This document shows, one piece after another, positions 9,910-17,685 of a stretch of DNA of 26,207 nt (position 1 is its first letter; the number at the start of each line of letters is the position of its first letter). The DNA is taken from positions 1 through 26,207 of IMG/VR virus record IMGVR_UViG_3300042898_001164, one strand, 5' to 3'. This DNA comes from a virus. Both the position numbers and the translations under genes were made by a program. The notes under the pieces were generated by a model. That model was given only the letters and a program-made list of their open reading frames with translations, searched no databases and was not told the origin of the DNA.

Positions 9910-9926
9910 CAAAAACGAAAATAACT

Positions 9927-9955
9927 GTGTACTTTAATTGAGAACGGTTTATATT
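9927..9955 (+). promoter_or_regulatory. Early-type promoter and leader cassette (copy 1)
   Basis: GTGTAC (9927-9932), 17 nt, TATATT (9950-9955). The 57 nt from 9927 to 9983 recur identically at 10677-10733. The leader carries TGATC (9968-9972) and GATCA (9984-9988) flanking the ribosome binding site AAGGAA. Confidence 0.8.
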
Positions 9956-9987
9956 AATAATATAAGCTGATCACAAGGAAAAAGATC

Positions 9988-10481: not shown

Positions 10482-10687
10482 TGAACTATCATGCTGCAAT
10501 GCACCGAGGATTCTCATACGCGTCTGAGGTGGTAGATGACGATGACGTCAGCAAGATCTATCACTTTGCATATGACATCACAAAACGTAAGCTGCTCCCG
10601 ATTCAGGGGTCATCCTATGATCGATTGTCACAAGAAGAATTTAATGCGCAAATTGAGCTCATTATCGAAAATAGTAGTGTACTTTAA
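10481..10687 (+). CDS. Small protein of unknown function (68 aa)
   Basis: A 68-residue acidic protein starts at ATG 10481, overlapping the previous stop. It contains an Asp run (VVDDDDVSK) and a helical C-terminus (LSQEEFNAQIELIIENSSVL). Its last codons are formed by the GTGTAC -35 element of the next promoter, so the reading frame runs into a promoter cassette. This is consistent with trimming of the 3' end by cassette insertion. No family is recognised. Confidence 0.65.
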   Translation: MNYHAAMHRGFSYASEVVDDDDVSKIYHFAYDITKRKLLPIQGSSYDRLSQEEFNAQIELIIENSSVL

Positions 10688-10705
10688 TTGAGAACGGTTT
10701 ATATT
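10677..10705 (+). promoter_or_regulatory. Early-type promoter and leader cassette (copy 2)
   Basis: GTGTAC (10677-10682), 17 nt, TATATT (10700-10705). The segment 10677-10733 is identical to 9927-9983. The promoter overlaps the 3' end of the preceding ORF. Confidence 0.8.
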
Positions 10706-10738
10706 AATAATATAAGCTGATCACAAGGAAAAAAGCTC

Positions 10739-10834
10739 ATGTTCTATCGCATCGCCTACAACGTCATCTCCTTCGCCGCTGCCGCGTTCTTCGTGTACGC
10801 AGTGGCATTTTTTGCTATTTGCGTTACTAACTAA
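10739..10834 (+). CDS. Tiny membrane peptide (31 aa)
   Basis: A 31-residue ORF has its own early promoter and an AAGGAA ribosome binding site at about 10725-10730. The sequence is a short polar start (MFYRIAYNVI) followed by one continuous hydrophobic helix rich in Ala and Phe to the end (...CVTN). It should span the inner membrane once. It is too short for default gene callers, but the dedicated promoter and leader argue that it is expressed. Function unknown; small early membrane peptides of T4-like phages often act on host processes, but that is inference. Confidence 0.65.
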   Translation: MFYRIAYNVISFAAAAFFVYAVAFFAICVTN

Positions 10835-10841
10835 AATAGTT

Positions 10842-10870
10842 GTGTACTTTAATTCACAACTGCTTATAAT
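10842..10870 (+). promoter_or_regulatory. Early-type promoter and leader cassette (copy 3)
   Basis: GTGTAC (10842-10847), 17 nt, a perfect TATAAT (10865-10870). The leader has TGATCA at 10883-10888 and again at 10901-10906, flanking the ribosome binding site. Confidence 0.82.
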
Positions 10871-10905
10871 AACAATATAAGCTGATCACAAAAAGGAAAT
10901 TGATC

Positions 10906-11067
10906 ATGAACGTTGTTACTCGGGATATCGCTGCAAAGCTCAAGATCGATCTAGAAGTCGCTCTTAAGATCCAGGATGCTATGGAATGTGACGGATTTGA
11001 CTTCAGCGAAGCCACCTATCGGGCTATCTTCAAAGAAGCAAAGTATCAATATTCCTTGATGAACTAA
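10906..11067 (+). CDS. Small protein of unknown function (53 aa)
   Basis: A 53-residue ORF starts at ATG 10906 after AAAAAGGAAA. The sequence (MNVVTRDIAAKLKIDLEVAL then QDAMECDGFDFSEATYRAIF) looks like a compact, soluble, helical protein of mixed charge. It has its own early promoter upstream and another immediately after it, so it is a single-gene unit. No family is recognised. Confidence 0.65.
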   Translation: MNVVTRDIAAKLKIDLEVALKIQDAMECDGFDFSEATYRAIFKEAKYQYSLMN

Positions 11068-11074
11068 AATAGTT

Positions 11075-11103
11075 GTGTACTTTAATTCACGACTGGTTAT
11101 AAT
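11075..11103 (+). promoter_or_regulatory. Early-type promoter ahead of DUF932 gene
   Basis: GTGTAC (11075-11080), 17 nt, TATAAT (11098-11103). It is very similar to the copy at 10842, but the leader diverges after ATATAAGCTGA and lacks the repeated TGATCA. Confidence 0.8.
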
Positions 11104-11161
11104 AACAATATAAGCTGACTACCTAACTTTCACAAACACACACAGAAACGGAAAATATATC

Positions 11162-12698: not shown

Positions 12699-12934
12699 TG
12701 GGTAAAAAGCGCGCTCGCAAGAAGCTAGTATCTAAAGGTTTACGTACCAAGGTATCTAACGGCGTCAGGACCACCACGGACTACCTGACGAAGCTACAGA
12801 ATATCTCTAAGGCATGGAAGCAATTCAAGAATCCATGGATGACCATCGAGAATCCTGATAAGTCGGCTACTAATCGACGTCATATCAAGGTACGCACCAA
12901 CGATTTGTGGGGCGATCCTAAGTACTCCAAGTAA
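12698..12934 (+). CDS. Small basic protein of unknown function (78 aa)
   Basis: A 78-residue, strongly basic protein begins MGKKRARKKLVSKGLRTKV and contains a hydrophobic-aromatic centre (ISKAWKQFKNPWMTIENP). The charge suggests nucleic-acid or ribosome binding, but no domain is recognised. It starts at the ATG overlapping the preceding stop and itself overlaps the next gene (TAATG). Confidence 0.7.
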   Translation: MGKKRARKKLVSKGLRTKVSNGVRTTTDYLTKLQNISKAWKQFKNPWMTIENPDKSATNRRHIKVRTNDLWGDPKYSK

Positions 12935-13260
12935 TGTCACTAGGATCATTCTTCGACGAAGAGGATGTTCCTATCCAGACGGTGGCGGAACGAATCAAGC
13001 AGCGTAGATGTCAGATGCTGGTTCATTCGTACCTCTACTATGGATTAGACACACCGATCGTCAGTGATGGCCAGTGGCAATCCTGGGCTGATGACCTCGT
13101 CGAATTGCAGAAGACTAACCTACATATAGGTTTCTACGATTCGGAATTCAAGGACTGGGACGGATCCACTGGCTGTCATCTACCTCATGACAATTGGACC
13201 AAAAATAAATCAAAATACTTGTGTACTTTAATTCAGGATGGTGATATATTGGTATTATAG
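12934..13260 (+). CDS. Hypothetical protein resembling a LigA Ia-type segment
   Basis: A 108-residue protein contains RRCQMLVHSYLYYGLDTPIV followed by SDGQWQSWADDLVELQ. The pattern (YYxLD..-SD-x-x-W/Y-D-x-L) resembles the N-terminal Ia domain of NAD-dependent DNA ligase, which binds the nicotinamide mononucleotide part of NAD. The rest of a ligase is absent, so this is a stand-alone domain at most. Similar short proteins occur in other phages. The last 16 or so residues are encoded by the promoter cassette at 13212-13250, suggesting that the natural C-terminus was replaced when the cassette arrived. Confidence 0.65.
   Translation: MSLGSFFDEEDVPIQTVAERIKQRRCQMLVHSYLYYGLDTPIVSDGQWQSWADDLVELQKTNLHIGFYDSEFKDWDGSTGCHLPHDNWTKNKSKYLCTLIQDGDILVL
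13212..13243 (+). repeat. 32-nt direct repeat, left copy
   Basis: These 32 nt are identical to 13741-13772. The repeat contains the -35 element of an early promoter and brackets the HD hydrolase gene, so the gene sits between two promoter copies. Confidence 0.9.
13221..13250 (+). promoter_or_regulatory. Early-type promoter ahead of HD hydrolase gene
   Basis: GTGTAC (13221-13226), about 18 nt, TATATT (13245-13250). It overlaps the 3' end of the upstream ORF. Confidence 0.7.
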
Positions 13261-13289
13261 GGGATGTGCCCCGATCGAAAGAGATGAAA

Positions 13290-13742
13290 ATGAAAAAAGG
13301 TGAAATGCTAAACAACATGCTTCTGCTAGCAACTACCGCACACGCAGGACAATATGATCGTGGTGGTACACCTTACATTCTTCATCCCATGAAGGTCATG
13401 CACTATCTTAAAACGACTGATGAGGAGTTAATGTGTATCGCTCTTGGTCATGACGTTATTGAAGATACGAAGACGACATATGTTGATCTGGTTAATATTG
13501 GCATGACACCACGTATCATTAATGCCATTAAAGCTCTGACTAAGCAACCTGGACAAACTTATGATGAGTATAAGCAATTAGTTTTTGCAAACGAAGATGC
13601 TATGCGTGTTAAGCTTTGCGACCTTCGTCACAACACTGATATCCGTCGCCTGAAGGGTGTATCTGAAAAGGATATTGAACGAATGGCAAAGTATCAGCGC
13701 TTTTATCTTGAAATTCAAAATAAGCTGATTGCAGGAAATTAA
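13290..13742 (+). CDS. SpoT/MESH1-like HD hydrolase (small alarmone hydrolase)
   Basis: The 150 residues match the hydrolase domain of RelA/SpoT proteins: AHAGQYDRGGTPYILHP (H32), GHDVIEDT (H54, D55, E58, D59) and VKLCDLRHN (D111). These are the metal ligands and catalytic residues of (p)ppGpp 3'-pyrophosphohydrolases such as MESH1. No synthetase, TGS or ACT domain is present, so it is a small alarmone hydrolase type. A role in removing (p)ppGpp during infection is inferred; other nucleotide substrates are possible. The start is set at ATG 13290, 6 nt after AAAGAG; ATG 13284 abuts that site and a GTG at 13266 has none. The gene is flanked by a 32-nt promoter-bearing direct repeat and lies next to the tmRNA gene. 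Confidence 0.88.
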   Translation: MKKGEMLNNMLLLATTAHAGQYDRGGTPYILHPMKVMHYLKTTDEELMCIALGHDVIEDTKTTYVDLVNIGMTPRIINAIKALTKQPGQTYDEYKQLVFANEDAMRVKLCDLRHNTDIRRLKGVSEKDIERMAKYQRFYLEIQNKLIAGN

Positions 13743-13772
13743 AATACTTGTGTACTTTAATTCAGGATGGTG
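13741..13772 (+). repeat. 32-nt direct repeat, right copy
   Basis: Identical to 13212-13243. It overlaps the stop codon of the HD gene and provides the -35 element and spacer of the tmRNA early promoter. Confidence 0.9.
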
Positions 13773-13778
13773 TATTAT
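13750..13778 (+). promoter_or_regulatory. Early-type promoter of the tmRNA gene
   Basis: GTGTAC (13750-13755), 17 nt, TATTAT (13773-13778). Transcription would begin near 13785, just before the acceptor piece. Confidence 0.75.
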
Positions 13779-13783
13779 AGTAA

Positions 13784-13791
13784 TATAAATA
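13784..13791 (+). promoter_or_regulatory. T4-type late promoter box of the tmRNA gene
   Basis: An exact TATAAATA lies 6 nt downstream of the early -10 element. Late initiation would fall at about 13797. The tmRNA thus has tandem early and late promoters. Confidence 0.65.
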
Positions 13792-13796
13792 GATTT

Positions 13797-14121
13797 GTTC
13801 GTTGATGCGGACTGATAACTGGTTGTGACACGGGTGCGAATCCCGTCGCCTCCACCACAGATACATTAGCCTTTGAGTGCAGTCCGAAAGGATCAAGAGA
13901 TAACTTCAAAGACCTCATATAACCAAGCTAGTGTATCTTTGATGGGGGCGAATAGAATCGAGCAGCAGTGCCTAGGAATGTGGAGAACACGGTAAGAAAC
14001 GACCGCCAATCAGTTCAAAACGTACAAATGCTAACGATAATAGTGTTATGGAATCTTACGCTCTAGCAGCTTAAGTAATCCGGGGTTTTGGTAGTTTCCC
14101 TAGCAACAGAATAAACTGCCA
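13797..14121 (+). ncRNA. ssrA: Circularly permuted (two-piece) tmRNA gene
   Basis: tmRNA rescues stalled ribosomes and adds a proteolysis tag. The order here is permuted. The acceptor piece comes first: T stem ACGGG (13830-13834)/CCCGT (13842-13846), acceptor strand CGCCTCC (13847-13853), then A-CCA to 13857. An intervening segment of 86 nt follows. The coding piece starts GGGGGCG (13944-13950), which pairs fully with CGCCTCC and places a G-U at pair 3, the alanine identity element. P2 forms between coding GCAGCAGT (13962-13969) and acceptor ACTGGTTGT (13818-13826) with one bulge. The tag ORF GCT 14030 to TAA 14074 encodes ANDNSVMESYALAA. A pseudoknot follows: GGG 14083-14085 with CCC 14098-14100, and GGTAGTTT 14090-14097 with AAACTGCC 14113-14120. 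The outer ends are estimates. Two-piece tmRNA is known from Alphaproteobacteria and a few other lineages. Confidence 0.92.
13859..13938 (+). other. Intervening segment of pre-tmRNA with 12-bp closing stem
   Basis: AGATACATTAGC (13859-13870) pairs with GCTAGTGTATCT (13927-13938) over 12 bp with one U-G pair, directly next to CCA and a few nt before the coding piece. Inside, CTTTGA (13871-13876) pairs with TCAAAG (13906-13911), and TCC-GAAA-GGA (13883-13892) forms a tetraloop hairpin. The stem would stack near the acceptor helix and present both junctions for RNase cutting. Confidence 0.75.
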
Positions 14122-14148
14122 CCCACACACAAACACAGGATAAACAAT

Positions 14149-14391
14149 ATGACTAAAGACAATTCACCGTACTTTCTTCGCCTAGAACTTATTAAGATTG
14201 CTAAAGATATTCTTCTAGAAGATTACCAGAATAGCAAGCTGGCCAAAGAAAATGACTATTATGCACAGCGTGAAATCAACGATCGTAAGGGGATGCCAGT
14301 TGCGCCATTCCCTATTATCCCTTTCACAGTGACGCAAGAGGCCATCATCAAGTTGGCTACGGCCTTAAATGGCTTCGTTTCAAAGCAATAA
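14149..14391 (+). CDS. Conserved T4-superfamily protein of unknown function
   Basis: An 80-residue protein starts MTKDNSPYFLRLELIKIAKD and contains APFPIIPFTVTQEAIIKLATALNGFV. I recall closely similar short proteins (YFLRLELIKMAKEML... and a final helix LNDFVS) from T4-like cyanophages, where they are unassigned. The start is ATG 14149, with AGGA 10 nt upstream and 28 nt after the tmRNA end. No membrane segment is present. Confidence 0.8.
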   Translation: MTKDNSPYFLRLELIKIAKDILLEDYQNSKLAKENDYYAQREINDRKGMPVAPFPIIPFTVTQEAIIKLATALNGFVSKQ

Positions 14392-14416
14392 ATAAACCTA
14401 CATCATGGAGACTACA

Positions 14417-14659
14417 ATGAGTGAAGCTACAGCTACCAATGGCCAGCTTAAGGCTTTCCTAGAACGTATTGAACGTGTCGAGGAAGATATGGATGCTCTG
14501 AAGGAAGATCGCAAGTCGATCTACGATGAGCTAAAGGGTGAAGGCTATGATGCAAAAATTATGCGTCGAGTCGTGCGTCTTCGGAAGCAAGATCCGGCAA
14601 AACGTCAGATGGAACAAGCAGAAGTTGACTTGTATCTGGCGGACCTTGGAGAAGTATAA
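14417..14659 (+). CDS. gapR: GapR-like nucleoid-associated protein (DUF2312)
   Basis: The 80 residues match the DUF2312/GapR family: GQLKAFLERIERVEEDMDAL, then DELKGEGYDAKIMRRVVRLRKQDPAKRQ and a final LYLADLG. In Caulobacter, GapR is a small coiled-coil protein that clamps overtwisted DNA ahead of replication and transcription and stimulates topoisomerases. The family is centred on Alphaproteobacteria, so the gene is host-related. The start is ATG 14417, 6 nt after GGAG; ATG 14405 in frame has no such site. Lys/Arg residues of the central helix that would contact DNA are kept. It overlaps the next gene by TAATG. Confidence 0.92.
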   Translation: MSEATATNGQLKAFLERIERVEEDMDALKEDRKSIYDELKGEGYDAKIMRRVVRLRKQDPAKRQMEQAEVDLYLADLGEV

Positions 14660-15565: not shown

Positions 15566-15741
15566 TGCAAGCTAACGATGTACTTAATAAGACAGCTGAG
15601 GTACAATGGTGTTGGGACAGATTTGACAACATCCTATTTGTTTTGAATGATAATGAATTATCTGATACTTACAAACTAGACTATGTCAAATATTTTGTTA
15701 AAATGGGACTCAAGGGTCGCCAAGATGAAAGAGAGACCTAA
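15565..15741 (+). CDS. Small protein of unknown function (58 aa)
   Basis: A 58-residue ORF begins MQANDVLNKTAEVQWCWDRF and ends GRQDERET. It overlaps the hydrolase stop at its start and the gp33-like start at its end (both TAATG). It is probably a helical soluble protein. No family is recognised. Confidence 0.65.
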   Translation: MQANDVLNKTAEVQWCWDRFDNILFVLNDNELSDTYKLDYVKYFVKMGLKGRQDERET

Positions 15742-15968
15742 TGGCTATTAGTACTAAGGCTCGTGATTTTTATGAGGCCATCGAGAATTTGGTATGGAAG
15801 CATGACATGGAATATATTGATGCTATCGTCATGCACTGTGAGAAGCATAATATTGAGATCGAGAGTATCGTGAACCTTATTAAAAACAATGAGAACTTTA
15901 AGAGTAAGGTTCAAATTGAAGCTGAAAACTTAAACTACCTACCAAAGACTGCTCGATTGGATTTTTAA
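15741..15968 (+). CDS. 33: Late transcription coactivator (gp33-like)
   Basis: In T4, gp33 bridges the host RNA polymerase beta-flap and the sliding clamp to activate late promoters with gp55. The 75 residues include MEYIDAIVMHCEKHNIEIESI and KVQIEAENLNYLPKT, a pattern close to gp33 proteins of T4-like phages (T4: EKIQSEAIDENLL). The C-terminus ARLDF resembles the T4 gp33 end TNTLDFLL, the clamp-binding motif. It lies directly before gp59 and near gp32, matching the T4 gene neighbourhood. The presence of TATAAATA boxes in this window fits a working late-promoter system. Confidence 0.85.
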   Translation: MAISTKARDFYEAIENLVWKHDMEYIDAIVMHCEKHNIEIESIVNLIKNNENFKSKVQIEAENLNYLPKTARLDF

Positions 15969-15969
15969 T

Positions 15970-16554
15970 ATGGAAGCCTATGACGCATACCAAATGTGTT
16001 TGGCTCTCAAGAGGCACTTTACTCTTGGTAGCACGTATGACTTCATAAAGTATAACGGTAAGACGAATGCGTCTAAGACGTCGTTCGATACTCGGAAGGA
16101 TAAGTACTCCTTCCATAAGTTATCTAAGAAGGATCATCCCCTTCATTTTATGATAGCTAATATTATTGAATATGGTCCATCGGTGTGGATCGGCGATATG
16201 GTCACTGACTCAAAGTATGAGGAGACTTATACTAAGTGGCTAAAGCGTCGAGAGTCTATCAGCTATATCTTTAAGTCTGACTTAGAGAACTTAGATGGTG
16301 ACTTCGAGTCTAACTTCGTCATCGCCGATGGACAATATCCTAAGCTACTTCAACTCTATATGAAGAAGCGTATATGCATCGAGACCTTGATCATATTGAA
16401 TGACATCCTCAAGTTCATTCCTCAGTGGAATAAACAGATCGAAGATACCATCATGTGGCCAGATATATATAATACATGCATCAAATACCGGCCATTCATG
16501 GAATATGATAAGGCCAAATTGAAGAAGATTGCTCTACAAACTTTATACGTATAG
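15970..16554 (+). CDS. 59: Helicase loader (gp59-like)
   Basis: gp59 loads the gp41 helicase onto forked DNA covered by gp32. The 194 residues start YDAYQMCLALKRHFTLGSTYDFIKYNG and contain TRKDKYSFHKLSKKD and KWLKRRESISYIFKSDLENL, matching the conserved N-terminal DNA-binding and C-terminal helicase-binding regions of gp59 as I recall them. T4 gp59 has about 217 residues. It starts 1 nt after the gp33-like stop. Its partners gp41 (7779) and gp32 (16750) are both encoded here. Confidence 0.93.
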   Translation: MEAYDAYQMCLALKRHFTLGSTYDFIKYNGKTNASKTSFDTRKDKYSFHKLSKKDHPLHFMIANIIEYGPSVWIGDMVTDSKYEETYTKWLKRRESISYIFKSDLENLDGDFESNFVIADGQYPKLLQLYMKKRICIETLIILNDILKFIPQWNKQIEDTIMWPDIYNTCIKYRPFMEYDKAKLKKIALQTLYV

Positions 16555-16749: not shown

Positions 16750-17685
16750 ATGACTATGGACTTCAATTCACTAAAGCGTTCCAGCCAATCTTCGCTATCG
16801 GCTCTAACGAAAGAGATCTCTAAGATCAATACTCCTAATTCAAAGCCTGGTGAAGATACCCGCTTCTGGAAGCCAGAAGTTGATAAGGCAAAGAACGGTT
16901 CTGCTACGATCCGTTTCCTTCCTGCACCAGCCGGTGAAGATATGCCATTCGTACGTGTCTGGGATCATGGTTTCCAAGGTCCTACAGGTAAGTGGTATAT
17001 CGAGAAATCACTAACCGCAATCGGTCAGCCTGATCCAGTTGCTGAGTATAACTCAGAGCTCTGGAATATCTCAGATGACGATAACTCGCCTACTCGTAAG
17101 CAGGCACGGGCTCAAAAGCGCCGTCTGCACTTTATATCAAACATCCTTGTTATCTCTGATCCTGCTAATCCTGCTAATGAAGGTAAGGTATTCCTTTACC
17201 AGTACGGCAAGAAGATCTTTGATAAGCTCAATGATTTGATGAACCCTCAATTTGCTGATGAAGAGGCCGTCAACCCATTTGACCTATGGAGTGGTGCAAA
17301 CTTTAAGCTTAAGATCCGTCAAGTTGAAGGCTATCGTAACTATGATAAGTCTGCCTTCGATGCACCTTCACCTGCTGATCGTGATGACGACCGTCTTGAA
17401 GCTATCTGGAAGAGTGAATACGCTCTAAAGGAATTTGTTGATCCTAGCAAGTTCAAGAGCTATGATGAACTTAAGACTAAGTTGAACTTGGTACTTGGCA
17501 ATACTGGCTCTGGTCAGATTACTCGTGCAGAGAACATCAAGCTACCACAATCATCTGCTCCGGTCTTTAAGGCTAAGGAAGCAGCTCCTGCTGCAGTCGC
17601 AGAGGATACGGTGCCTTGGGCAACGGATGATGATGAAGATCTATCCTATTTCGAGAAGCTAAAGAAGTTAGCTGACGAAGACTAG
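16750..17685 (+). CDS. 32: Single-stranded DNA-binding protein (gp32-like), cysteine-free
   Basis: gp32 coats single-stranded DNA and organises replication, recombination and repair. The 311 residues show the family pattern: an N-terminal cooperativity segment (FNSLKRSSQSSLSALTKEI, with an R/K-S-S type LAST-like motif), then core ATIRFLPAPAGEDMPFVRVWDHGF, TGKWYIEKSLTAIG and QKRRLHFISNILVI. An acidic C-terminal tail (DDDEDLSYFEKLKKLADED) matches the partner-binding tail. T4 gp32 holds a zinc ion through His64 and three cysteines; no cysteine occurs anywhere in this protein, so the zinc site is absent. The start is ATG 16750 after GGAG. A strong terminator follows. Confidence 0.95.
   Translation: MTMDFNSLKRSSQSSLSALTKEISKINTPNSKPGEDTRFWKPEVDKAKNGSATIRFLPAPAGEDMPFVRVWDHGFQGPTGKWYIEKSLTAIGQPDPVAEYNSELWNISDDDNSPTRKQARAQKRRLHFISNILVISDPANPANEGKVFLYQYGKKIFDKLNDLMNPQFADEEAVNPFDLWSGANFKLKIRQVEGYRNYDKSAFDAPSPADRDDDRLEAIWKSEYALKEFVDPSKFKSYDELKTKLNLVLGNTGSGQITRAENIKLPQSSAPVFKAKEAAPAAVAEDTVPWATDDDEDLSYFEKLKKLADED

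Follow-up and report, generated by a model that had tools for sequence, protein, structure and literature searches.

A circularly permuted, two-piece tmRNA gene at a conserved position in T4-like phage genomes

Is the region at 13,797 to 14,121 of this viral DNA a real tmRNA gene, and if so, what would a T4-like phage do with a ribosome-rescue RNA? The window (the whole stretch analyzed, 26,207 nt) is a fragment of a T4-like phage, as a preliminary description made from the letters alone had claimed: gp44, gp62, regA, gp43, uvsX, and gp41 lie to the left of the RNA gene and gp33, gp59, and gp32 to its right (PHROGs and Pfam). The gene itself occupies a 406-nt gap between a gene for an HD protein, which ends at 13742, and the ORF at 14149.

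Identification and anatomy of the gene

We conclude that the region is a real circularly permuted, two-piece tmRNA (ssrA) gene of the alphaproteobacterial type, an identification carried by the covariance-model scores. The Rfam model for tmRNA_permuted (RF04321) matches 13796-14074 over its full length with 105.9 bits (E = 5e-20; curated cut-off [GA], 47 bits), and alpha_tmRNA (RF01849) matches 13757-14123 with 90.5 bits (E = 1.3e-23; model positions 1-355 of 355; GA, 50 bits). The ARAGORN call, also a permuted tmRNA*, spans 13762-14165 and gives the tag ANDNSVMESYALAA. The preliminary description had proposed a full tmRNA in permuted order and of alphaproteobacterial type, and the finders that handle permuted genes agree with it on both points. 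Two further contigs, L002 and L003, carry an identical 394-nt tmRNA stretch, so the gene is not an assembly artifact. A search with 12 kb of the window returned no near-identical isolate phage.

ARAGORN and our reading of the sequence place the acceptor piece ahead of the coding piece, with an encoded CCA and a G3-U70 acceptor helix. The parts of the gene and its landmarks, all on the + strand, are as follows.

13736-13772, +: repeated promoter-like element, with an exact TGTGTACTTTAATT at 13749-13762, then TATTAT (repeat copies)
13784-13791, +: TATAAATA, tentatively a T4 late-promoter-like box
13796-13857, +: acceptor piece, with the P2 3' strand, T arm, acceptor 3' strand, and encoded CCA (RF04321 and RF01849 matches)
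13818-13826 and 13962-13969, +: 3' and 5' strands of the P2 helix, 8 pairs and one bulge (sequence; comparative pairing test)
13830-13846, +: T arm, ACGGG-UGCGAAU-CCCGU (sequence)
13847-13853 with 13944-13950, +: acceptor helix, CGCCUCC with GGGGGCG, 7 bp, third pair G·U (G3·U70) (sequence)
13854 and 13855-13857, +: A, then the encoded CCA (sequence)
13858-13943, +: intervening sequence (IVS), 86 nt, predicted to be cut from the precursor (sequence; pairing of ends)
13944-14123, +: coding piece, with the acceptor 5' strand, D-like loop, P2 5' strand, tag, and last pseudoknot (RF01849 match to 14123)
14030-14074, +: tag reading frame, ANDNSVMESYALAA at 14030-14071 plus UAA (ARAGORN)
14090-14120, +: last (PK2-like) pseudoknot, stem GGUAGUUU (14090-14097) with AAACUGCC (14113-14120), GGGG at 14082-14085 pairing into the loop (sequence; CGGGGU...CCUAGCAACAG kept in L250 and L253)
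15741-15968, +: gp33, late-transcription coactivator, the start of the gp33-gp59-gp32 landmark (Pfam PF16805, E = 5.5e-17)
15970-16554, +: gp59, helicase loader (Pfam PF08993/PF08994)
16750-17685, +: gp32, single-strand DNA-binding protein (PHROG 224, E = 1.2e-112; Pfam PF08804)

The encoded CCA, the acceptor helix with G-U as its third pair, the T arm, and the PK2-like pseudoknot were found in the same places as in the preliminary description, and ARAGORN independently gives the tag, with the proteolysis-type end ALAA that had been claimed. The P2 helix between the two pieces, also claimed there, rests on comparison rather than on single-sequence energy, because shuffle tests of this sequence were not significant: 494 of 1,000 dinucleotide shuffles were as good as its P2 and 42 of 300 as good as the cofold of the two tRNA-like parts. 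In a set of 52 distinct permuted tmRNAs, most of them from viruses, P2 pairing averages -5.7 kcal/mol for cognate strands versus -3.3 kcal/mol for noncognate ones, and none of 5,000 permutations was as low. It is this comparative signal that points to a P2 helix here.

The promoter-like element directly ahead of the tmRNA is one of seven copies of a repeat (TGTGTACTTTAATT plus an AT-rich box) at 9.2-13.8 kb, mostly directly ahead of genes; the TGTGTACTTTAATT core has nine matches with two or fewer mismatches against 0.31 expected. A 68-nt intergenic element is also present in five copies that are 65-100% alike (9916-9983, 10666-10733, 10831-10898, 11064-11131, and 13739-13806), and these elements are probably phage promoters. 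The TATAAATA-type box occurs five times in the window versus 1.8 expected, a count that 5 of 100 shuffles reach, and L253 has a similar late-promoter-like box at the corresponding position.

The neighboring genes are of some interest in themselves. The HD protein (13266-13742), whose gene carries a separate copy of the repeated promoter-like element, matches the RelA/SpoT hydrolase region below the cut-off (TIGR00691, E = 7e-14) and is possibly a phage ppGpp hydrolase. Positions 12934-13260 encode the N-terminal NAD+-binding domain of LigA by itself (PF22745, E = 8e-27), and the rest of the ligase is absent. Two genes after the tmRNA is a gene for a GapR-like DNA-binding protein (14405-14659; PF10073, E = 2.4e-24). 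GapR, which we take to be an alphaproteobacterial nucleoid protein, offers a hint to the phage host. The T arm was also tried as a host marker, in a pattern search of genome contigs; it does not identify the host, as the matches were mostly to one-piece tmRNAs of Elusimicrobia and Acidobacteria, with one in a Rickettsiales MAG.

Conserved position and intervening sequence

The phage two-piece tmRNA is not an isolated case; many T4-like viruses carry it at a conserved position. More than 20 T4-like viral contigs have a permuted tmRNA upstream of gp33-gp59-gp32, often with a SleB-type cell-wall hydrolase in between. Ten of the 11 closest tested gp32 relatives hold one (Rfam), and the eleventh (L249) ends inside the slot. 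Rfam confirmed ten loci that ARAGORN had called, and a further 14 loci yielded 2 positives. Of the 50 records that contain an HD-gene relative, 14 have a permuted tmRNA above the cut-off, and one is present in 12 of the 32 gp32 loci for which 5 kb or more of upstream sequence is available; both counts are lowered by fragmentary records and ARAGORN misses. The tags in the slot vary, nearly all keeping an AND/ANE-like start and an ALAA end. Two occupants upstream of gp32 (L255, 6588-6984, and L321, 7111-7416) fit beta_tmRNA (RF01850) best; their relatives are of the alpha type.

The record is a 26-kb IMG/VR fragment, and contamination of the contig by host or prophage DNA might be suspected. However, T4-like genes flank the tmRNA on both sides, and the same gene order recurs in other, independent contigs as well as in the Melnitz isolate. 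This synteny already refutes contamination, to which we give almost no credence.

The ends of the IVS (13859-13870 and 13927-13938) pair in a 12-bp helix (-17.0 kcal/mol). Across loci, this helix is typically 8-13 bp (about 11 bp) and continues the acceptor stem, stacked under it. Cognate ends pair at -13.9 versus -5.6 kcal/mol for noncognate ends in 31 phage loci (0 of 5,000 permutations), so the helix covaries strongly. The helix is not a phage invention, because several chromosomal genes have paired IVS ends too. Its likely role is to hold the precursor for cleavage by RNase P and at the 3' end. Phage IVSs are about three times as long as the sampled chromosomal ones (median, 86 nt in 19 slot genes versus 29 nt in 29 chromosomal genes drawn from the best-scoring ones; Mann-Whitney p = 2e-8, uncorrected for kinship). 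In a 333-kb viral record (L004, IMGVR_UViG_3300032242_000723) with a permuted tmRNA at 492-802 (CCA at 554), the IVS matches the skipping-rope RNA family RF02924 at 559-651 (46.8 bits; cut-off, 36.7), and that family may in part represent a phage tmRNA IVS.

Most phage copies score 90-120 bits versus 140-167 bits for the chromosomal genes listed, as might be expected of a decaying host ssrA carried over by chance. We consider such decay very improbable, as the slot is conserved, the frame is intact, and cognate P2 and IVS strands pair. Moreover, relatives at ~68-75% identity, L250 and L253 among those compared, retain the resume region, tag end, and last pseudoknot, whereas the IVS and flanks have diverged. 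In a rough tree of the mature tmRNA parts, the window groups with L250/L251 and L253, apart from 30 sampled chromosomal genes; this tree is only indicative, being based on short sequences and a host sample of best-scoring genes, with no support values read. Given the lower scores and this grouping with phage relatives, the phage copies appear to be long established in phages and not recently acquired from hosts.

Proposed role during infection

Our preferred reading is that the locus encodes a functional permuted ssrA that would work as a second tmRNA, supporting ribosome rescue during infection (probability of roughly 85%). It is favored by the agreement of ARAGORN and two Rfam models, the T4-like gene set, cognate P2 and IVS pairing, the shared slot, and the kept tag ends; against it count the many related T4-like records without a tmRNA and a P2 that by itself is not stable beyond chance. 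From the anatomy and established tmRNA biology, we can outline how the RNA would be transcribed, processed, charged, and used for tagging to the benefit of the phage. A single precursor would be transcribed from the tmRNA's own phage promoter, and the IVS would fold back, its helix continuing the acceptor stem. RNase P would then create the 5' end at G13944, and 3'-end processing would expose the CCA at 13857, leaving two RNAs that the acceptor helix and P2 hold together. The tmRNA would be charged by host AlaRS through its G3-U70 pair. Together with host SmpB, it would enter stalled ribosomes and add A-ANDNSVMESYALAA, and the tagged product, with its ALAA end, would go to ClpXP-type proteases. 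In this way, the phage tmRNA would add to the rescue capacity of the host at a time when infection disturbs host mRNA.

A search that recovered SmpB in 10 of 14 control genomes gave no phage SmpB in the window, in Melnitz, or in 17 related viral records; host SmpB is therefore presumably used. The lack of a phage SmpB in these records also fits the main rival to ribosome recycling, in which an intact-looking tmRNA interferes with or redirects host trans-translation, either by competing for SmpB and AlaRS or by tagging chosen targets for amino-acid recycling. Hosts already have their own ssrA (chromosomal tmRNA in 270 of 289 sampled alphaproteobacteria), which counts against a clear benefit to the phage and is likewise in keeping with interference or redirection. 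The tag-less tmRNA of phage DS6A inhibits E. coli tmRNA, according to PMC11915505, and PMC9004378 suggests amino-acid recycling through tagging of chosen targets for Melnitz. Nevertheless, a full frame and the usual ALAA degradation end are kept across divergent phages, which is what a working tag would be expected to show. Our first choice is ribosome recycling during infection, and we regard interference or selective tagging as unlikely.

A broader scenario is more tentative than our preferred reading, and we consider it less likely than not. The RNA may be a dedicated ribosome-rescue RNA in a fixed slot ahead of gp33-gp59-gp32 in T4-like phages of alphaproteobacteria, and in some T4-like phages whose gene is of the beta type, phage adapted and with its own tags. 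Its long helix-closed IVS might serve as a second RNA product or in processing control, and alpha and beta types might be swapped on host change.

Comparison with known systems

Permuted tmRNAs are also found in several other isolate phages. The tmRNA of phiCbK-like Caulobacter phages is also permuted, and its T arm is 93.5% alike over 31 nt. These phages differ in not being T4-like by taxonomy (Dolichocephalovirinae), in the long tag VAANDNDVVAFASAREAIAA, and in a tmRNA that is unannotated in the record; in phiCbK (L091, JX163858), it lies at 1439-1878 (RF04321, 71.4 bits). Unannotated permuted tmRNAs are likewise present in Brevundimonas phage Kabachok (L090, ON529852; 1469-1724, RF04321, 57.1 bits) and Rhodobacter phage RcSimone-Hastad (L089, MW677525; 1737-2150, RF04321, 108.7 bits, tag ANDNVRMDAQALAA).

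Alphaproteobacterial chromosomal ssrA (RF01849, e.g., that of Caulobacter) shares the piece order, encoded CCA, G3-U70, P2, tag, and final pseudoknot, and in several genes the paired IVS ends. It differs in its higher model scores and in the shorter IVS (the median of 29 nt given above for 29 best-scoring genes).

Further close parallels are T4-like myophages. The suspicion in the preliminary description that such a tmRNA might be new for a T4-like phage does not hold, as two-piece tmRNAs were reported in 2022 for two T4-like phages, the methylophage Melnitz and the pelagiphage Mosig (PMC9004378), and Melnitz carries its tmRNA in the same slot. That paper puts the number of two-piece tmRNAs in isolate phage genomes at 53, of which 50 are marine or aquatic, and identifies a permuted tmRNA in 17 of the 47 contigs that resemble Melnitz; PMC11915505 gives 79 unique tmRNA sequences from bacteriophages and includes a description of RF04321. 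Mosig is, on the evidence of PMC9004378, a T4-like myophage with a two-piece tmRNA. Melnitz (a Methylophilales phage, MZ577097) is a T4-like myophage with an alpha-type permuted tmRNA and paired IVS ends. Its tmRNA (tag ANDNYVPVDYALAA) lies directly upstream of gp33-gp59-gp32, whereas four genes separate the tmRNA from gp33 in the window; its IVS is 142 nt versus 86 nt. In Melnitz, a glutamine riboswitch (RF01739) directly follows the tmRNA, whereas none is near the window's gene, where Rfam gave no other RNA family or riboswitch at E values up to 1.

Phage permuted two-piece tmRNAs are thus already known in related marine T4-like phages, and the window adds a clear further case. Relative to the accessible parts of PMC9004378 and PMC11915505, what is added is the conservation of the slot over many contigs, the covarying IVS helix and longer phage IVS, and the beta-type occupants. 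With the slot conserved, it becomes possible to test in culturable relatives, for example Melnitz and its host, why a phage would carry an RNA for ribosome rescue.
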